Below, piece after piece: positions 13,094-48,344 of a DNA stretch of 64,000 nt (positions are counted from its first letter, which is position 1; the number at the start of each line of letters is the position of its first letter). A model generated the notes under the pieces. It searched no databases. It was not told where the DNA came from and saw nothing but the letters and a program-made list of their open reading frames with translations. Source of the DNA: an uncultured Pseudomonadota bacterium (lineage in GTDB: Bacteria > Pseudomonadota > Gammaproteobacteria > Steroidobacterales > Steroidobacteraceae). The position numbers and the translations under genes are program-made. Where the stretch lies: assembly GCA_903868595.1 (NCBI GenBank), contig CAIPVV010000042.1:62001-126000 (forward strand), given 5' to 3'.

Positions 13094-13254
13094 GAGGAAC
13101 TCCTGGGCGAAGGGGCCAGGAGCCGAGCCACGGAACGGCTTGCAGACTTCAATGAAACCAAAGGCATGACAGGTCCCGCGGTGACGACTCCAACTGTCGC
13201 CTCCACGGATAAACCGTAGCCCCCGGTGCACCCCGACCGATAGCAGGACGACGG

Positions 13255-13420
13255 TGCGAGGCAGGTTTCCTGGCTTACGGCTCCTTCGCGTTTCGTCCGC
13301 CTTCCCAGGCCGCGGCCCAGTGGCGTGTGGACGATCGCTCGCCGATCACAGTTGCGGGGGCAGCCGCGGTCTTGAACCGCGTTCCCTTAAATCCCTTGCG
13401 GGAACCTTGCACCTACGCCG
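13255..13420 (-). ncRNA. Cobalamin riboswitch in the btuB leader
   Basis: Read on the minus strand, the leader contains the conserved cobalamin-aptamer blocks in order: AGGTGCAAGG (13405-13414), then AAGGGAA and CTGCCCCCGCAACTG (within 13345-13392), GCCACTG (13318-13324), the B12-box GCCTGGGAAGGC (13299-13310), and the 3' block TAAGCCAGGAAACCT (13263-13277). It lies about 160 bases before the btuB start codon. Known switches of this class turn btuB expression off when adenosylcobalamin or another cobalamin binds. The expression platform (ribosome-site masking or termination) should lie within 13094-13255 and was not folded here. Confidence 0.95.
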
Positions 13421-13429
13421 GACCCTAAC

Positions 13430-39386: not shown

Positions 39387-40022
39387 ATGTTTACCGGCAT
39401 CATCCAATCCGTGGGCCATGTCGTCGCGGCCGAGACGCGCGGCGGCGACCTGCACCTCACGCTGGATGTGGCCGAGCTGGCCGCGCGCGTGGACCCGGTG
39501 CGCCTGGCAGTGGGGGAGAGCGTCGCGGTGAACGGCTGCTGCCTGACGGTCGTGGAGCCGGCGGCCGGGCGCTTCAGTGCCGACGTGTCGCGCGAGAGCC
39601 TGAACCTCACGACGCTGGGCGCGTTGCGGCCCGGGGATCGGGTGAACCTGGAGCCGGCGCTGCGCGCCGGGGATCCGCTGGGTGGCCACCTGATGACCGG
39701 CCATGTGGATGGCCGCGCGCAGGTGCTCGCCCTGCAGCGCGATGCCCGGTCGCTGCGCGTGACGATCCAGGTGCCCCCGGAGTTTGCCAAGTTCATCGCG
39801 CCGAAGGGCTCGGTGGGGCTGGACGGCATCAGCCTCACGGTCAACGAGGTGGACGGGCGGCGCTTTGGGGTGAATCTCATTCCCCACACGCAGCAAGTCA
39901 CCACGTTCGGCACGCTCGCGGTCGGCCAGTGGGTGAACCTGGAGGTCGATACCTTGGCCCGGTACGTTGAGCGGATTCTCGGGTCGACTCAGTCCGTGCC
40001 GCTGGGCAGGGAAGTCGGCTAG
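39387..40022 (+). CDS. ribE: Riboflavin synthase, alpha subunit
   Basis: A 211-residue enzyme that makes riboflavin by dismutation of two 6,7-dimethyl-8-ribityllumazine molecules. It begins with the hallmark MFTGIIQSVGHV. There are two lumazine-binding barrels: VGESVAVNGCCLTVVEP and GGHLMTGHVDGRAQV in the first, KGSVGLDGISLTVNEV and GVNLIPHTQQVTTF in the second. A short C-terminal helix for trimer formation (VDTLARYVERIL) follows. The ATG lies one base after the ribD stop, so the two are coupled. Some databases call this gene ribC. Confidence 0.97.
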   Translation: MFTGIIQSVGHVVAAETRGGDLHLTLDVAELAARVDPVRLAVGESVAVNGCCLTVVEPAAGRFSADVSRESLNLTTLGALRPGDRVNLEPALRAGDPLGGHLMTGHVDGRAQVLALQRDARSLRVTIQVPPEFAKFIAPKGSVGLDGISLTVNEVDGRRFGVNLIPHTQQVTTFGTLAVGQWVNLEVDTLARYVERILGSTQSVPLGREVG

Positions 40023-40730: not shown

Positions 40731-41870
40731 ATGAAAGCAGGCCCCAAGCTCGTCGAGTCCGCCAGCGGCTTCGACCGGATCGAAGACATCCTCGCCGACC
40801 TTGCCGCCGGCAAGATGGTGGTCATCGTCGATGATGAGGACCGCGAGAACGAGGGCGACCTGCTCATGGCGGCCGCCAAGGTGCGCCCGGAGGACATCAA
40901 CTTCATGGCGCGCTACGGGCGCGGCCTGATCTGCCTGACGCTGACGCGGGAGCGCTGCGCGCAGCTGCGGCTGCCGCTGATGGTCAGCGACACGGATCGC
41001 GAGCGGCGCACGAACTTCACGCTGTCGATCGAAGCCGTGGAAGGCATCACCACCGGCATCTCCGCCTACGACCGTGCCAAGACGGTGCAGGCGGCCGTGG
41101 CGCCCGATGCCCGTCCGGATCACCTGCGCCAGCCGGGCCACGTGTTTCCGCTGATGTCCCAGCCGGGCGGCGTGCTGACGCGCGCGGGTCACACCGAGGC
41201 GGGCTGCGATCTGGCGCGACTGGCAGGCCTTGAGCCCTCCGCCGTCATCGTGGAGATCATGAACGACGACGGCACGATGGCCCGCCGGCCGCAGCTGGAG
41301 GTGTTTGCCAAGCTGCACGGCCTGCGCATGGGCACGATCCGCGACCTGATCCGCTACCGCCTGCGCAACGAGCGCAGCGTGGAGCGCATCGCCGAGCGCA
41401 CCATCACCACCGAGTTTGGCGAGTTCCGCCTGTACTGCTACGAGGACCATGTGCATCGCGACCTGCACCTGGCGCTGGCCAAGGGCCCGCTCACGGGCCC
41501 GGAGCTGCCGCTGGTGCGCGTGCACCTGGCCGATACCCTGCGCGACCTCCTGTGCGTGCGCGGTGAAGGCCGTGCCTGGACGCTGCGGGCGGCGCTGGAG
41601 CGCATCTCCCGCGCCCCCAGCGGCGTGCTGGTGATCCTGCGCGAGCAGGAAACGCCGCGGGAGCTGGCGGACGCCATCCAGGGCCTGGCGCGGCGCGAGC
41701 CGCCCTCGCAGGGCGATAATTCGGTGCTGCGCACCTACGGCGTGGGTGCGCAGATCCTCAAGGACCTGGGCGTGCGGCGCATGAAGGTGCTGTCGGCACC
41801 CAAGCAGATGCACGGCATCTCCGCTTTCGACCTGGAAGTGGCCGAATACGTGGGCGAAGAGAACGCCTAA
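40731..41870 (+). CDS. ribBA: 3,4-dihydroxy-2-butanone 4-phosphate synthase with degenerate GTP-cyclohydrolase-II-like domain
   Basis: A 379-residue two-domain protein. The N-terminal RibB domain (about 1-210) has VVIVDDEDRENEGDLLMAAA, INFMARYGRGLICLTLT and the active-site RAGHTEAGCDLARLAG; it makes the four-carbon riboflavin precursor from ribulose 5-phosphate. The C-terminal half (about 215-375) has the RibA fold (TTEFGEFRLYCYEDHVHRDL; LRTYGVGAQILKDLGVRRMK). However, the zinc-binding cysteine cluster and the SECLTGD-type motif are replaced by HLADTLRDLLCVRG. It should therefore not hydrolyse GTP. Such RibB-RibA-like fusions are known in gammaproteobacteria, where another GTP cyclohydrolase II gene supplies the activity. 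ATG at 40731; ribH follows after 53 bases. Confidence 0.93.
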   Translation: MKAGPKLVESASGFDRIEDILADLAAGKMVVIVDDEDRENEGDLLMAAAKVRPEDINFMARYGRGLICLTLTRERCAQLRLPLMVSDTDRERRTNFTLSIEAVEGITTGISAYDRAKTVQAAVAPDARPDHLRQPGHVFPLMSQPGGVLTRAGHTEAGCDLARLAGLEPSAVIVEIMNDDGTMARRPQLEVFAKLHGLRMGTIRDLIRYRLRNERSVERIAERTITTEFGEFRLYCYEDHVHRDLHLALAKGPLTGPELPLVRVHLADTLRDLLCVRGEGRAWTLRAALERISRAPSGVLVILREQETPRELADAIQGLARREPPSQGDNSVLRTYGVGAQILKDLGVRRMKVLSAPKQMHGISAFDLEVAEYVGEENA

Positions 41871-41923: not shown

Positions 41924-42430
41924 ATGTCCAAATATCGCCTCGTGGAGGGCGCGCCGCAGGTGTCGGCGACGTCCGAGCGCAAGACCAGCACGGTCGCGCG
42001 CGACCTCTCGGTAGCCATCCTGGCCGCCCGCTTCAATGAGTTCATCGTCGATCCGATGGTCGAGGGTGCCCTGCAAGCCTGGGAGCGCCACGGCGGCCAG
42101 CCTGACCGCATCACGCTCGTGCGGGTGCCGGGCGCGTTCGAGCTGCCGCTGGCCGCCAAGCGCTTTGCGGCCAGCAAGCGCTATGACGCCATCGTCGCGC
42201 TGGGCTGCGTGATCCGGGGCGATACGCCGCATTTTGACTACGTTGCCGGCGAGGCCGCGCGTGGCATCGCGAATGCCGCCATGGAGACCGGCGTGCCGGT
42301 GGCCTTCGGCGTGCTCACGGTGGAGAACGTCGAGCAGGCGATCGAGCGCGCCCAGCCCGCCCGCATGAACAAGGGCGGCGAGGCCCTGGAATGCGCCATC
42401 GAGATGGCCCTACTGTTGCGGCAGGCGTGA
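41924..42430 (+). CDS. ribH: 6,7-dimethyl-8-ribityllumazine synthase
   Basis: A 168-residue enzyme that condenses the RibD product with the RibB product to give the direct precursor of riboflavin. Motifs are SVAILAARFNEFIVDPMVEG, RVPGAFELPLAAKRFAASKR, and VALGCVIRGDTPHFDYVAGE with the catalytic histidine. The C-terminal GGEALECAIEMALLLR is also typical. The first 25 residues are a basic extension before the fold. nusB starts 5 bases after its stop, the classic ribH-nusB pair. Confidence 0.97.
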   Translation: MSKYRLVEGAPQVSATSERKTSTVARDLSVAILAARFNEFIVDPMVEGALQAWERHGGQPDRITLVRVPGAFELPLAAKRFAASKRYDAIVALGCVIRGDTPHFDYVAGEAARGIANAAMETGVPVAFGVLTVENVEQAIERAQPARMNKGGEALECAIEMALLLRQA

Positions 42431-42435
42431 GTACC

Positions 42436-42888
42436 ATGACCAGTGCCTCGGGCAAAGCCCGCATGAACCGCGCCTCCGCCACCCGTGCGCTCGCCCGCAA
42501 GCTGGCGCTGCAGGCGCTGTATCGCTGGCAGCTCAATCCCTGCGAGTGGCAGGACCTGCAGGCGGAATTCCTCGCCACCGAGGAGGGTCCGCGTGCCGAC
42601 CGCGAGTATTTCCAGGTGCTGCTGCAGTCGATCTGCACGGATATCGCCAGCCTGGATGAGGCCATCACCGGCTGGGCGGATCGCCCGAGCGGGGAGCTGG
42701 ATCCGATCGAGCGCGCGGTGCTGCTGATTGGCGTGCAGGAACTGCGCTCGCAGCTGGAAGTGCCCTACCGCGTGGCCATCAGCGAGGCGGTCAGCCTCGC
42801 GCGGCGCTTCGGGGCGACCGACGGCCACAAGTTCGTCAATGCCGTGCTGGATCGCGCCGCCCGCAGCCTGCGTCCGCTGGAAACCTAA
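42436..42888 (+). CDS. nusB: Transcription antitermination factor NusB
   Basis: A 150-residue all-helical RNA-binding protein. With NusE (S10) it binds boxA and keeps RNA polymerase going through rRNA operons. ATG at 42436, five bases after ribH, gives MTSASGKARMNRASATRALA. RKLALQALYRWQLNP follows, and the conserved end ISEAVSLARRFGATDGHKFV then NAVLDRAAR. Length fits the family. It is followed after 16 bases by thiL. Confidence 0.96.
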   Translation: MTSASGKARMNRASATRALARKLALQALYRWQLNPCEWQDLQAEFLATEEGPRADREYFQVLLQSICTDIASLDEAITGWADRPSGELDPIERAVLLIGVQELRSQLEVPYRVAISEAVSLARRFGATDGHKFVNAVLDRAARSLRPLET

Positions 42889-42904: not shown

Positions 42905-43909
42905 GTGCCGGTCGGCGAATTCGACCTGATCGATCGCTATTTTCGGCGCCTGGATCGCCCGGGCGGGCATGCGCGCGCCGACGTGCTGCTGGGCGTGGGC
43001 GATGACGCCGCGGTGCTGCGCGTACCTGCCGGGCAGGAACTGGTCGCGGCCATCGACACGTTGGTGGAGGGCCGGCACTTCCTGCCGGGCTGCGCCCCGC
43101 AATCCATCGGCCACCGGGCGCTGGCCGTGAACCTCAGTGACCTGGCCGCGATGGGGGCGGAGCCGGCCTGGGCGCTGCTGGCGCTGACGCTGCCGGCGGC
43201 CGAGGAGGCGTTCCTGGAGGCCTTCGCGGCAGGGCTGGGACGGCTCGCGGCCGCCCACCACGTGGCCCTGGTCGGGGGCGATACCACCGCCGGTCCCCTC
43301 ACCGTCTCCGTCCAGGTCCTGGGTTTCGTGCCACCCGGCCAGGCGCTGCGTCGTGCCGGTGGCGCCCCCGGGGACCTGCTGTTCGTCAGCGGGACGCCCG
43401 GCGATGCCGCGGCGGGCCTGCAGCTGGAGCGGCGCGCCGCGGACGGCGGGGTCGCTCCGCCCGGCGAGGCGGCAGCGGGCCAGGCGCTGCGCGAGCGTTT
43501 CCTCTATCCGACGCCGCGGGTCGCCCTGGGGCGAGCGCTGCGCGGCCTGGCCTCCGCCTGCATCGACGTCTCGGATGGCCTGGCGGGCGATGCGGCGAAG
43601 CTGGCGGCCGCCAGCGGCTGCGGACTGCGGCTGGAGGCCGACGCGCTGCCGCTCTCCCCGGCACTGCGTGCGCTGGCAGGCCCCGAGCGCGCGCTGCAGC
43701 TGGCGCTGGAGGGTGGCGATGACTATGAGCTGTGTTTTTCGCTGCCCCCCGCGCAGCTGCCGGAACTTGCGGTCGCGGCCCAAGCTGGCGGCTGCCCGCT
43801 CACCTGCATCGGGGTGCTGGAGCAGGCCCCGGGCGTGCGCCTGTACCGCGGCGGCAAGATCCAGCCGTACGTTGCCACCGGCTACGACCACTTCGCGAAC
43901 AGCGGTTGA
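42905..43909 (+). CDS. thiL: Thiamine-monophosphate kinase
   Basis: A 334-residue enzyme that phosphorylates thiamine monophosphate to thiamine diphosphate. The start is GTG at 42905, giving the usual GEFDLIDRYF opening; no closer ATG exists. Motifs are LLGVGDDAAVLRVPAGQELV, AIDTLVEGRHF, NLSDLAAMGAEPAWALLALT and LVGGDTTAGPLTVSVQVLGF for ATP and metal binding. CIDVSDGLAGDAAKLAAASG and GGDDYELCFSLPPAQLPEL make up the C-terminal part. It closes the rib-nusB-thiL cluster. Confidence 0.96.
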   Translation: MPVGEFDLIDRYFRRLDRPGGHARADVLLGVGDDAAVLRVPAGQELVAAIDTLVEGRHFLPGCAPQSIGHRALAVNLSDLAAMGAEPAWALLALTLPAAEEAFLEAFAAGLGRLAAAHHVALVGGDTTAGPLTVSVQVLGFVPPGQALRRAGGAPGDLLFVSGTPGDAAAGLQLERRAADGGVAPPGEAAAGQALRERFLYPTPRVALGRALRGLASACIDVSDGLAGDAAKLAAASGCGLRLEADALPLSPALRALAGPERALQLALEGGDDYELCFSLPPAQLPELAVAAQAGGCPLTCIGVLEQAPGVRLYRGGKIQPYVATGYDHFANSG

Positions 43910-43980: not shown

Positions 43981-45294
43981 ATGTCCCGACCCCTCGCCAC
44001 CATGAGCCTTGACGCGCGCGCTGCCGTTCCGGACCGCATCGGCAAGTACGTCATCATCAACGAGGTGGGACGCGGCAGCACCGGCATCGTGTACCTCTCG
44101 CACGATCCGTATTACGGCCGCGATGTCGCGATCAAGGTCTACAACAGCGTCCAGGGGATGGATCCGGAGAAGGCGCGCGTGGCGCGCACGATGTTCCTCT
44201 CCGAGGCCCACATGGTGGGCATGCTGCAGCATCCCAACATTCTGCCGATCTACGATGCCGGCGAGGAAAACGAGCGCTGCTACATCGTCACCGAGCACGT
44301 GCACGGCGCGCGCACGCTGGCGGCTTTCTGCCGGGCCGACAACCTGCTGCGCACCGACGTGGTGGTGGAAATCCTCTTCAAGTGCGCCAAGGCACTGCAC
44401 TACGCGCACTCGCGCGGCGTGATCCATCGCGACATCAAGCCCTCCAACATCATGCTCACGCAGGACGGGGACGTGCGCATCATCGACTTCGGCATCGCGC
44501 TGGTGGCCGATAGCGAGATCTCGCGCATCGAAGGCATCGCGGGCAGCCCCAGCTACATGTCACCCGAGCAGGTGCAGAACCAGGATCTCACCAACCGTTC
44601 CGACCTGTATTCCCTGGGCGCCGTGATGTACGAGCTGCTGACCGGCGCGCGGCCATTCCGCGCCGGCAACCTCGCCAAGCTCTTGCACCAGATCGTCTAC
44701 GCGACGCCCGCCCCGATCCACACGCTGCGTGCGGACGTGCCGGAGGAGCTGGAGATGGTCGTGGCGATGGCGCTGCAGAAGGATCCGGAGAAGCGCTACC
44801 GCAGCGGCGTGGACTGGGCAGCGGCGCTGACGCGCGTGCACCAGAAGCTGCGCGCGCAGGCGGCCGACATGGCGCAGACCGAGCAGTTCGCGCTGCTGCG
44901 CCGCCTGAAGTTCTTCCACGAGTTCTCGCACTCGGAGATCTGGGAGGTGCTGCGCGCCAGTGCCTGGCAGGACTACGCGGCCGGCGAGGAGATCGTCAAG
45001 GAAGGCGAGATGGATGAGCGCTTCTACATCGTGGTCTCCGGGACCTGCAACGTGGAGCGCAACAACGGCACGCTGGGCAGCCTGGGCGCCGGGAATTGCT
45101 TCGGGGAGACCAGCTACGTGCCCGGTGCCAAGCGCCATGCCACGGTGCGCGCCGCCGGCCCCGTGACCGCGCTGCGCGTGAGCTCCACGCTGCTGGAGCA
45201 GGTCTCTGCCTCCTGCCAGCTGCGCTTTAACCGCGTGTTCCTGCGTTCCCTGATCGAGCGCCTGCAGGGCTCGGAGCGCGTTCCCGCCTCCTGA
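43981..45294 (+). CDS. Ser/Thr protein kinase fused to a cyclic-nucleotide-binding domain
   Basis: A 437-residue cytosolic protein with no membrane segment. The Hanks-type kinase domain (about 23-285) is complete: glycine loop VGRGSTGIVYL (29-39), Lys52 in VAIKVY, HRDIKPSN (149-156, catalytic Asp151), DFG (169-171) and SPSYMSPEQ (189-197). The C-terminal domain (about 305-420) is a CRP-type cyclic-nucleotide-binding fold: FFHEFSHSEIWEVL, YAAGEEIVKEGEMDERFYIV and a phosphate-binding-cassette-like FGETSYVPGAKRHATVR with FGE at 374-376 and Arg385. It may be controlled by cAMP, cGMP or a related ligand, but the cassette is imperfect. It stands 72 bases after thiL and has no visible phosphatase or substrate gene nearby. 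Confidence 0.92.
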   Translation: MSRPLATMSLDARAAVPDRIGKYVIINEVGRGSTGIVYLSHDPYYGRDVAIKVYNSVQGMDPEKARVARTMFLSEAHMVGMLQHPNILPIYDAGEENERCYIVTEHVHGARTLAAFCRADNLLRTDVVVEILFKCAKALHYAHSRGVIHRDIKPSNIMLTQDGDVRIIDFGIALVADSEISRIEGIAGSPSYMSPEQVQNQDLTNRSDLYSLGAVMYELLTGARPFRAGNLAKLLHQIVYATPAPIHTLRADVPEELEMVVAMALQKDPEKRYRSGVDWAAALTRVHQKLRAQAADMAQTEQFALLRRLKFFHEFSHSEIWEVLRASAWQDYAAGEEIVKEGEMDERFYIVVSGTCNVERNNGTLGSLGAGNCFGETSYVPGAKRHATVRAAGPVTALRVSSTLLEQVSASCQLRFNRVFLRSLIERLQGSERVPAS

Positions 45295-45597
45295 TCCCCC
45301 CGGGGATCCTGCGCCAGCCCGTACCTGGCGCTGGCGCGCAGTACCCGGCCCGACGAGAACGGCAAGGCACCGGCGCAGTTCCGGTTGCCGCGGGAGGGGT
45401 TGCTTGCGGCAACGAGGCGACCCGGGAGAGCGGCGCCGTGCGCGCCGAACCGGTGTCGGCGGGAACCCCCATCGGTCCGCGGTCTGCGCGGATCGCTGCG
45501 CCGGCCCGGACGCTGGGCGCGGCACTGCGTGCCCACACCCTGCGGGAGGTACGTCGGGTAAAGGGCCTGCGCGTGGAGGACTGGCGGGCGCCGTAGC
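45295..45597 (+). pseudogene. Possible decayed coding region downstream of the kinase
   Basis: Two frames with strong coding-like GC3 bias run on from one another. The first (45310 to about 45415) includes LARSTRPDENGKAPAQFRLP. The second (about 45420 to the TAG at 45595-45597) includes AALRAHTLREVRRVKGLRVE and ends DWRAP. Neither has a start codon and I know no family. Together they could be the end of a lost gene with one frameshift. The remaining 100 bases before btuF show no riboswitch or clear promoter. Confidence 0.25.
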
Positions 45598-45700
45598 GCC
45601 TGGTGACCGTGGGATCAGGCCGCCGGGCAGGGGCGACAGTCGGGCGCCAATCAGGGATGATTCGGGCCTCTCACGTGGCCTACCAGGTACCTTCGGCCCC

Positions 45701-46588
45701 ATGTCTTTCCCTATCGGCCCGGCGCACTCGGTGTCGCGTGGCGCGGGCGCGCTCATCGCCGCCGCGGCCTGCCTGCTGCTGGCGCTGCCTGGCGGGGCCG
45801 GTGCGCAGGAGCCGCCGCGCCGCATCCTCTCGCTGAACCTCTGCGCCGACCAGCTGCTGCTCGCCTTGCTGCCGCCGGAGCGCATAGTCTCGCTGACCTG
45901 GCTGTCGCGCAGCGAAGGGGATCCGGACCTGGTGCCCCTGGCGCGGCGCATCGCGGCCAACCACGGCACGGCGGAGGAGGTGCTCGCCGCGCAGCCGGAC
46001 CTGGTGATCGCCGGCACCTACACGACGTCGGCTACGCGTCGCCTGCTGGCGCGCACCGCCACGCCCTTGCTGGAGCTGCCCGCCGTGCAGGACTGGGCGG
46101 GCATCCGCCGCGTGACGCGGCAGGTGGCGCGGGCGGTGGGCGCGGAGGCGCGCGGCGCGGCGCTGCTCTCGCAAATGGATGCGACGCTCGCGGCACTGGC
46201 ACGCACGCGCCCGGCCGATCCGGTGCGCGTGATCAGCTGGGGCGGCGGCGGCAGTGACGTGCCGGGCCGCGATACGCTCTTTGACCAGATACTCACCGCA
46301 GCGGGCGGGGAGAACCTGGGCGCGCCCCTGGCGGGCCGCGCCAGCGTGGACCTGGAGCAGTTGCTGCAGGCCCGGCCGGAAGTCCTGATGCGCGGCTCGG
46401 CCTACGCGGCGATGCCGGCCGTGCGCAACCAGGCCGCCGCGCATCGGCTGATCCAGCGGCTCTATCCGCAGGCCCAGCTCACCTATCCCGAGGCGCTCTA
46501 TGGCTGCGGGGTGCCGAAGGCGGCGCAGGCGGCCCTCGCCCTGCGGGCGCAGCTGCTGGCCGCGCGTGCTGCGCGGGGGCCGCGATGA
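45701..46588 (+). CDS. btuF: Periplasmic cobalamin/siderophore-binding protein (BtuF-like)
   Basis: A 295-residue solute-binding protein with a signal peptide (about 1-36, ALIAAAACLLLALPGGAGAQ). The mature protein has the TroA/BtuF-type opening RILSLNLCADQLLLALLPPE, then AEEVLAAQPDLVIAGTY, VISWGGGGSDVPGRDTLFDQ and VDLEQLLQARPEVLMRG. Such cluster-III binding proteins carry B12 or ferric siderophores to a BtuCD/FecCD-type permease. ATG at 45701 is the first codon that gives an export signal. Its stop overlaps the permease start (46585). B12 as ligand is inferred from the BtuB in the window; no riboswitch precedes this operon. Confidence 0.85.
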   Translation: MSFPIGPAHSVSRGAGALIAAAACLLLALPGGAGAQEPPRRILSLNLCADQLLLALLPPERIVSLTWLSRSEGDPDLVPLARRIAANHGTAEEVLAAQPDLVIAGTYTTSATRRLLARTATPLLELPAVQDWAGIRRVTRQVARAVGAEARGAALLSQMDATLAALARTRPADPVRVISWGGGGSDVPGRDTLFDQILTAAGGENLGAPLAGRASVDLEQLLQARPEVLMRGSAYAAMPAVRNQAAAHRLIQRLYPQAQLTYPEALYGCGVPKAAQAALALRAQLLAARAARGPR

Positions 46589-47580
46589 GGGGACAGCGAC
46601 GCGCGCCGTTGCTGGGGCTGCTGCTCGCGGCGCTGGCCGCGCTGTTCGTCCTGTCGCTGCTGTCCGGGCGGGTGTGGTTGTCGGCCGCGCAGGTCTGGGA
46701 CGCGCTGCGGTCGCCGTCCGATCAGCTGCCCAGCCTGATCGTGCGGGAGCTGCGCCTGCCGCGCGCCGTGCTCGCCTGCCTGGTGGGTGCGACGCTGGGG
46801 CTGGCCGGCGCGGTGCTGCAGGGACTCACGCGCAACCCGCTGGCCGAGCCCGGGCTGCTGGGCGTCTCCTCCGGTGCCGCGCTCGGCGCCGTGCTCGCGA
46901 TCTACACGGGCCTGGCCACGGCGCTGCCGCTGGCGACGCCGGTGCTGGGGCTCCTCGGGGCGTTCGCCGCCGCGCTGCTGACGCTCACGCTGGGCCGCGG
47001 CGGTGGTGTGCTGGTGCTGATCCTGGCCGGCGCCGCGGTCTCCGGCCTCATGCTCGCCGGCACCGCGCTGGCCTTGAACCTCGCGCCCAACCCCTACGCC
47101 GCCTATGAGATCTCGATGTGGCTCCTGGGCTCGCTGGCCGACAAGAGCTGGGACCACGTGCTGCTGGCCGCCCCGTTCATCGTGGCGGGCCTGCTGCTGC
47201 TGGCCAGTACGGGTCGCGCGCTGGATGCGCTGGGACTGGGGGAGGTGCAGGCGGAGAGCCTGGGTATCGACCTTGCGCGCGTGCGCGCCGTGGTGCTGGT
47301 GGGCACCGCGCTGAGCGTCGGGGCCGCGACCTCCGTGACGGGGGCGATCGGCTTCATCGGCCTGCTCGCGCCGCACCTGGTACGCCCGTTCGTGGGCCAC
47401 GAGCCGCGGCAGGTGCTGCTGCCCGCCGCACTGGCCGGTGCGCTGCTGCTGCTGGCCGCGGACATCGGCACCCGCCTGCTGCCGTTTGAGCAGGAGCTGA
47501 AGCTGGGCGTGCTCACGGGACTCACCGGCACGCCGTTCTTCCTGTGGCTGGTGCTGCGGCTGCGGCGGGTGGCGCCGTGA
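46585..47580 (+). CDS. btuC: FecCD/BtuC-type ABC transporter permease
   Basis: A 331-residue inner-membrane permease with about ten hydrophobic segments. Family landmarks are LIVRELRLPRAVLACLVGAT, LAGAVLQGLTRNPLAEPGLL and SSGAALGAVLAIY. ATSVTGAIGFIGLLAPHLVR then PFVGHEPRQVLLPAALAGA form the cytoplasmic coupling region. Overlaps of four bases on both sides (with btuF and the ATPase gene) show a tight operon. It imports the ligand delivered by the BtuF-like protein; B12 versus ferric siderophore is not decided by sequence alone. Confidence 0.9.
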   Translation: MRGQRRAPLLGLLLAALAALFVLSLLSGRVWLSAAQVWDALRSPSDQLPSLIVRELRLPRAVLACLVGATLGLAGAVLQGLTRNPLAEPGLLGVSSGAALGAVLAIYTGLATALPLATPVLGLLGAFAAALLTLTLGRGGGVLVLILAGAAVSGLMLAGTALALNLAPNPYAAYEISMWLLGSLADKSWDHVLLAAPFIVAGLLLLASTGRALDALGLGEVQAESLGIDLARVRAVVLVGTALSVGAATSVTGAIGFIGLLAPHLVRPFVGHEPRQVLLPAALAGALLLLAADIGTRLLPFEQELKLGVLTGLTGTPFFLWLVLRLRRVAP

Positions 47581-48344
47581 CCCGGCTCGCCGCGAGCGGG
47601 CTGAAGGTGTCGCGCGGCGGTCGCTGGATCCTGCAGTCCGTCAGCGTCGAGGCCCAGCGCGGGGAGTTCATCGCCGTGCTCGGGCCCAACGGCGCGGGCA
47701 AGTCCACGCTGCTGTCGGTGCTCGCCGGCCTGCTCAAGCCCGAGGAGGGCCGCGTGCTGCTGGACGGGCAGCCCGTGGCGGGCATCGCGCCGCGGCTGCT
47801 CGCGCGCCGGCGCGCGTTCCTGCCGCAGAACCCCCGCTGCGACTGGCCCCTCCCGGTGGAGCGCCTCGTGGCGCTGGGGCTGACCCCGAGCCTGCCGGCC
47901 TTCGGCGGCTTCACGGCCGAGGATGGCGCGCGCATCGAGCTCGCGCTGGCGGCCTGCGACCTGCTGGAGCATCGCCAGCAGAGCGCAACCACGCTCAGCG
48001 GCGGGGAGCTGTCGCGCGCGATGCTGGCGCGCGCCTTGGTCGGGGATCCGGACCTGCTGATCATCGATGAGCCGCTGACCGGGCTGGACCCGCGCCACGC
48101 GCTGGATGCGGCACGGCGGCTGGGGCGCCTGGCGCGGGAGCAGGGGAAGCTGGTGATCGCCGCGGTCCACGACCTGAACCTGGCGCTGCGGCATGCGACG
48201 CGGATCTGGGCCCTGCGGGACGGGCGCCTGCTGGCCGACGGGCCGGCGGCGACGACGCTCAACGCGGCCCTGCTGCGCGAGGTCTATGACGTGACCGGCT
48301 GCGTGGCCGGCGAAGGTGCCCAGGCCTACGTGGACTACGCCTAG
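47577..48344 (+). CDS. btuD: ABC transporter ATP-binding protein (BtuD/FecE-type)
   Basis: A 255-residue ATPase. GTG at 47577 overlaps the permease stop (GTGA) and gives MTRLAASGLKVSRGGRWILQ. Walker A is GPNGAGKS (36-43), Q-loop FLPQNP (81-86), signature LSGGE (140-144), Walker B LLIIDEP (160-166), and the H-loop is in AAVHDLNLAL. Subfamily features match the iron-siderophore/B12 importers. It powers uptake with the permease upstream. It ends convergent with the SDR gene, with a small hairpin between them. Confidence 0.9.
   Translation: MTRLAASGLKVSRGGRWILQSVSVEAQRGEFIAVLGPNGAGKSTLLSVLAGLLKPEEGRVLLDGQPVAGIAPRLLARRRAFLPQNPRCDWPLPVERLVALGLTPSLPAFGGFTAEDGARIELALAACDLLEHRQQSATTLSGGELSRAMLARALVGDPDLLIIDEPLTGLDPRHALDAARRLGRLAREQGKLVIAAVHDLNLALRHATRIWALRDGRLLADGPAATTLNAALLREVYDVTGCVAGEGAQAYVDYA

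Follow-up and report, generated by a model that had tools for sequence, protein, structure and literature searches.

The locus raises the question of whether a bacterial Ser/Thr protein kinase that carries a cyclic-nucleotide-binding domain (cNBD) on the same chain could be controlled by a cyclic nucleotide and, if so, by which one. The gene is located in the window, by which we mean the whole 64,000-nucleotide stretch of DNA that was analysed, whose contig belongs to a genome assembly of 3.03 Mb (Table 1). Its codon GC content of 65, 43 and 91% at positions 1, 2 and 3 respectively was the pattern of a real gene. The Pkinase and cNMP_binding matches lay so far above the curated Pfam cut-offs that they are not due to chance, and their order, kinase first and cNMP domain second, was the reverse of that in PKG, as the first-pass annotation of this DNA had noted. 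That annotation was also right that the protein has no membrane segment, as the highest 19-residue mean in a hydropathy scan was 1.08. The full-length AlphaFold model of the protein had a pLDDT of 82 and a pTM of 0.78, with low confidence at residues 174–187 in the activation segment. A scan for promoters and terminators found none.

Table 1. Features of the kinase-cNBD gene and the genes upstream of it (positions in the window)
Feature	Position (bp)	Strand	Residues	Basis and remarks
ribE	39387..40022	+		Pfam Lum_binding
ribBA	40773..41870	+		Pfam DHBP_synthase and GTP_cyclohydro2; start uncertain
ribH	41924..42430	+		Pfam DMRL_synthase
nusB	42391..42888	+		Pfam NusB, E 2.7e-27
thiL	42929..43909	+		Pfam AIRS/AIRS_C; named from operon position/synteny; start codon uncertain
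Kinase-cNBD gene	43981..45294	+		ATG start, stop codon included; 437 aa product
Hanks-type protein kinase domain	44047..44799	+	23-273	Pfam Pkinase, E 1.2e-50; PknB/PknA structures the best fold matches
Activation segment (DFG...SPE)	44485..44568	+	169-196	RD-type kinase
Cyclic-nucleotide-binding domain	44968..45204	+	330-408	Pfam cNMP_binding, E 8.5e-17; Foldseek; phmmer
Phosphate-binding cassette FGETSYVPGAKRHATV	45100..45147	+	374-389	
Conserved C-terminal helix	45208..45273	+	410-431	AlphaFold model and conservation; candidate lid and dimer interface

Inspection of the kinase domain revealed the complete catalytic set (K52, E75, H149-R150-D151 and D169-F170-G171) which, together with the Pfam match, confirmed the earlier description of a complete Ser/Thr kinase with Lys52, HRD and DFG. 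The Gly-rich loop, VAIK Lys, HRD, DFG, SPE and kinase fold that mark a Hanks-type kinase were all present. An alignment of 96 rows (the window protein and 95 distinct orthologs) showed no variation at K52, E75, HRD, F170 or G171, and in an alignment of 49 rows S181, S189 and S191 of the activation segment were invariant. A VIA search with the full model aligned 252 residues of the kinase with the PknB-type structure 5u94 (Z 30.6, rmsd 2.2, 35% identity); the matches listed were to kinases only, so this search says nothing on the cNBD. Sequence and model agree in assigning the kinase domain to the bacterial PknB type. The same genome encoded other kinases, among them one with HEAT repeats (G000:C43:146454-147248, an 867-aa frame) and one with TPRs (G000:C10:100720-101409, an 819-aa frame), and had two PP2C-type phosphatase matches.

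The C-terminal domain, modelled alone, had a pLDDT of 86, and Pfam, the model and Foldseek agreed on a CNB fold with a beta barrel and flanking helices. Its best Foldseek matches were cAMP-bound PfPKA-R, PKA RI-alpha, PKG and CRP-type domains, and phmmer revealed Plasmodium PKG and PKA RI-alpha to be the closest solved structures by sequence. The CRP-like ligand domain annotated at the C-terminus was thus borne out; failure to be predicted as a CRP fold had been named as what would refute it, and the domain does match cAMP- and cGMP-binding folds. The cassette FGETSYVPGAKRHATV aligned without gaps to the PKA (GELALIYGTPRAATVVA) and PKG (GELALLYNDPRTATVIA) consensus sequences in the available part of a 2007 survey (PMC2246266), each of which contains one arginine. 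F374, G375, E376, G382 and R385 were fixed in 96/96 rows, such that every row had the Glu and Arg of a canonical cassette as that consensus defines it. The first-pass reading of FGE and one arginine therefore stands but its verdict of 'not perfect' does not, and a degenerate cassette was rejected. Additionally, G354 was invariant (49 rows) and matched by position Gly169 of PKA, which is described in the same part of the survey as co-conserved with the cassette arginine and tied to canonical cassettes. In the same 49 rows C412-N417, F420, L421 and R427-Q429 of the C-terminal helix were invariant, making this helix a candidate lid and dimer interface.

A search for distant homologs gave 63 matches, which formed 45 rows besides that of the window once duplicates were removed; one row (L130) was unaligned and blank. 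The cassette was retained in nearly all of the 44 readable rows, the departures being VGE in L173, an arginine shifted by one in L120 and short insertions in L171 and L172. On sequence and model the C-terminal domain is predicted to be a receptor for cyclic nucleotides whose phosphate-binding cassette is complete, and with the cassette intact the absence of a ligand is less likely. A domain that needs no ligand, serving as a structural or dimerisation module in a kinase whose control lies with partners or solely with phosphorylation of its activation segment, would fit the conservation of the C-terminal helix, which is as strong as that of the cassette, and CNB families with non-canonical cassettes do exist; however, several such families in the available part of PMC2246266 lack the cassette Glu or Arg, both of which are invariant here (96/96). 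We regard such a module as improbable.

The residue after the cassette arginine varied in the 96 rows, being T in 50, Q in 21 and L in 15, and was H in the window protein. This residue biases a cNBD towards cAMP or cGMP, and Thr at this position favours cGMP in PKG. The ligand could accordingly be another cyclic nucleotide working the same switch, either cGMP or, as with the TIR effectors of Pycsar, a pyrimidine cNMP; this reading draws on Thr being commonest here and on the Foldseek/phmmer matches, which also included the PycTIR cNBD and PKG domains with bound cGMP. We nevertheless think it unlikely that cAMP is replaced in this way. The window genome encoded one class III cyclase, in which the motifs IKTMGD and RDVFG were located, and the Lys and Asp in these are presumably those typical of adenine-specific class III enzymes. 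The kinase-cNBD gene has moreover been inherited vertically within an operon, in contrast to a defence effector, which has its cyclase next to it. Nothing was found in favour of c-di-GMP as the ligand. A CRP-like protein was also present in the genome, and there was no match to a class I cyclase. A further protein of this genome combined a tandem cNBD with a rhodanese domain (G000:C53:10319-10975, a 368-aa open frame).

Within the window's family, 102/120 sampled genomes from 24/25 genera carried the kinase-cNBD at E <= 1e-80; the 18 that did not all had a class III cyclase match. The first-pass annotation had proposed a database search for the domain order and a check of cassette conservation, and the same order was found in these 102 genomes with the cassette conserved throughout the 96 rows. 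A one-off fusion was rejected because of this spread. At the level of the class, 105/369 genomes matched at E <= 1e-60, where no more than four candidates from each genome were scored, and at least 72 of these (the window's included) covered both domains among the matches listed, often with two to four matches; one of those counted (G292) has a longer-reaching match that starts at residue 116. In a sample of 398 genomes from the phylum, rows with both domains came from the window's class only and matches outside it were to the kinase alone. The named relatives belonged to the Steroidobacteraceae and Woeseiaceae, and the loci included cultured members of Steroidobacter, Povalibacter and Peristeroidobacter.

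The window has the gene order ribE-ribBA-ribH-nusB-thiL-kinase, with 71 nt between the end of thiL and the kinase-cNBD gene. In nearly all relatives examined this gene closed a ribD-ribE-ribBA-ribH-nusB-thiL-(pgpA) operon, so the kinase is probably expressed constitutively alongside housekeeping enzymes and regulated by its ligand, not at the level of transcription. Synteny was compared in 80 named loci, retained from a set of 194, 73 of which had at least 1.5 kb upstream. Here thiL was on the same strand no more than 1 kb upstream of the kinase in 72/73 loci, with pgpA between the two in 34, and the sole exception was L009 (also L091), where thiL was missing upstream and nusB adjoined the kinase. 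The gap between pgpA and the kinase, which depends on estimated start codons, was 10 nt or less in 20/29 loci with pgpA called directly upstream; where pgpA was missing the similarly estimated gap after thiL was tens to about 200 nt. On the other side of the gene a periplasmic-binding component, a FecCD permease and an ABC ATPase (45404-48344, + strand, Pfam), an uptake set of the cobalamin or siderophore type, separated the kinase from a folE2/dxs block. A FecCD permease and ABC ATPase pair also lay a few kb from the kinase-cNBD gene of a distant class member (L153), and Rfam gave a single gathering match in the window, a cobalamin riboswitch (13243-13424, - strand, 114 bits).

The linkage to thiL was also present in more distant genomes (L151, L154, L156, L158 and L161) and extended over seven tool-numbered families. 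A second set of copies consisted of kinase-cNBD pairs around a CBS-domain protein and pgi: in L145-L150, L152, L153 and L162 the pairs lay on either side of a CBS-domain protein and/or glucose-6-phosphate isomerase encoded in the opposite orientation. In many kinases of this CBS/pgi group (L122, L124-L129, L133, L136-L138, L140 and others) DFS replaced the catalytic DFG. Because adenine nucleotides are ligands of CBS domains, the paired copies could conceivably have a link to energy sensing. A tree of 54 rows (the distant rows without L130, plus nine family rows) had a 99/99 branch which split 20 thiL-linked rows from 20 CBS/pgi-linked rows; two unlinked copies sat beside the thiL group. Linkage and tree together indicate that the gene stayed in one operon across the seven families. 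Recent acquisition by mobile DNA was rejected, since both its position and the tree mark the gene as resident.

Whether the operon says anything about the role of the kinase is a separate matter from its ligand. The gene may be a passenger that is kept by vertical descent and convenient expression with no riboflavin, thiamin or lipid link, as might be expected from its last position, from the longer gap after thiL where there is no pgpA and from the copies elsewhere in the class that adjoin the CBS protein and pgi. A linkage kept over seven families and the short gap after pgpA in most of the loci where it was called directly upstream argue the other way, and in our judgement the passenger reading has roughly an even claim to be right; it is compatible with control of the kinase by cAMP. 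Presence in 102/120 family genomes and operon linkage in 72/73 loci point to a selected function for the gene.

A class III cyclase was found in 113/120 family genomes and, across the class, in 63/71 genomes with the kinase-cNBD compared to 174/297 others; its gene was not adjacent to the kinase-cNBD gene. The remaining 8/71, which included all three sampled f120 genomes, kept the kinase with no class III match, a finding that favours the ligand-free module considered above; the f120 loci (L132, L134 and L141) retained the cassette despite this. The one class III cyclase of the window genome (G000:C50:4826-5752) carried an FHA domain at its C-terminus (E 7.3e-13). The FHA domain is a phosphothreonine reader, so cAMP and phosphothreonine signalling may converge on this FHA-cyclase, which is a candidate partner for the kinase-cNBD. 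The FHA-cyclase was matched in 92/120 family genomes and, with both domains, in 84/369 class genomes (own included; 93 had any match, and G483, cut by a contig end, was left out). Among cyclase-bearing class genomes it was present in 43/63 with the kinase-cNBD vs 40/174 without, a comparison uncorrected for shared descent, and 28/71 kinase-cNBD class genomes had no FHA-cyclase. Counted by tool-numbered families, again uncorrected for shared descent and with the total assumed to be 160 or 182, 23 had both genes, 12 the kinase only and 23 the FHA-cyclase only.

Within the family the FHA-cyclase was found in 85/102 genomes with the kinase vs 7/18 without. One genus, g13, accounted for much of this difference: 8/9 of its genomes lacked both genes and the ninth (G089) had the kinase alone. 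Removal of g13 left 85/101 vs 7/10 (p 0.37), so the within-family association is essentially one joint loss. A kinase motif was located near the FHA-cyclase in only 1/30 loci. The kinase and FHA-cyclase might form a two-way feedback loop, in which the kinase would be switched on by cyclase-made cAMP, and the FHA domain would in turn recognise phosphothreonine that the kinase produces. That such a loop is a bacterial invention independent of PKA/PKG and core equipment of this group seems to us very doubtful.

The explanation we favour for the locus, whose chances we judge to be about evenly balanced, is that the protein is a soluble, cAMP-responsive Ser/Thr kinase which would act like PKA/PKG by convergence, outside that family. 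The class III adenylyl cyclase of the cell would make cAMP, which would bind the cassette with Glu376 contacting the ribose and Arg385 the phosphate. Closure of the C-terminal helix, itself conserved, over the ligand may then determine how the cNBD pairs or docks, as happens in CRP, PKA-R and PKG, and the kinase domains, freed or paired, would trans-phosphorylate their activation segments and then their substrates. The suggestion of a possible link between nucleotide signalling and phosphorylation through this kinase gains strength from the invariant cassette, the PKG and PKA RI-alpha matches and the genome's class III cyclase and CRP-like protein. Bacterial cAMP is best known for its action via transcription factors. 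If the explanation is true, a conserved, mostly single-copy soluble kinase whose cyclic-nucleotide receptor is intact would provide a direct route from cAMP to protein phosphorylation, with an evolutionary origin separate from that of PKA/PKG.

The architecture as such is already known in prokaryotes and is uncharacterised, to go by the available parts of three publications. A 2012 review (PMC3415842) mentions prokaryotic kinase-CNB fusions and leaves their ligand control as a question, the 2007 survey (PMC2246266) lists kinases among the partners of its 'Other_bacterial' CNB group, and a 2024 study of Planctomycetota kinases (PMC11032199) places the cyclic nucleotide-binding domain among the few domains shared with the kinases of yeast and C. 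elegans. The fusions of PMC3415842 and PMC2246266 couple a CNB domain to a protein kinase domain, as here; unlike here, their description in those parts is silent on family, domain order, synteny and distribution. A search of the openly accessible literature found no mention of the thiL-linked family, of its cassette and spread or of the FHA-cyclase as its partner. As cultured members exist, ligand control of a prokaryotic kinase-CNB fusion is directly testable in this family.

Comparison with known systems places the protein outside each of them. It shares RD motifs with the PASTA/PknB-type kinases (PknB, PknA and StkP), which are the best sequence and fold matches of its kinase domain; these have a transmembrane segment and extracellular PASTA repeats, whereas the kinase-cNBD has neither and carries a cytosolic cNBD instead. 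With CRP/Vfr-type regulators it shares the CNB fold, a cassette of the FGE...R type and a helix after the barrel, but CRP/FNR factors have a C-terminal HTH, to which the kinase-cNBD had no Pfam match, its output being a kinase. PKA consists of separate R (tandem CNB) and C subunits and not of one chain with one cNBD. Eukaryotic PKG is closest in plan, with kinase and CNB on one chain, a canonical cassette and, by sequence, a CNB domain near which the cNBD falls together with that of PKA RI-alpha. However, PKG has tandem N-terminal CNB domains and an AGC-type kinase, whereas the single cNBD here is C-terminal and the kinase is nearest to PknB, which sets the protein outside the PKG family; the fusion of kinase and CNB domain most likely arose independently of PKG.
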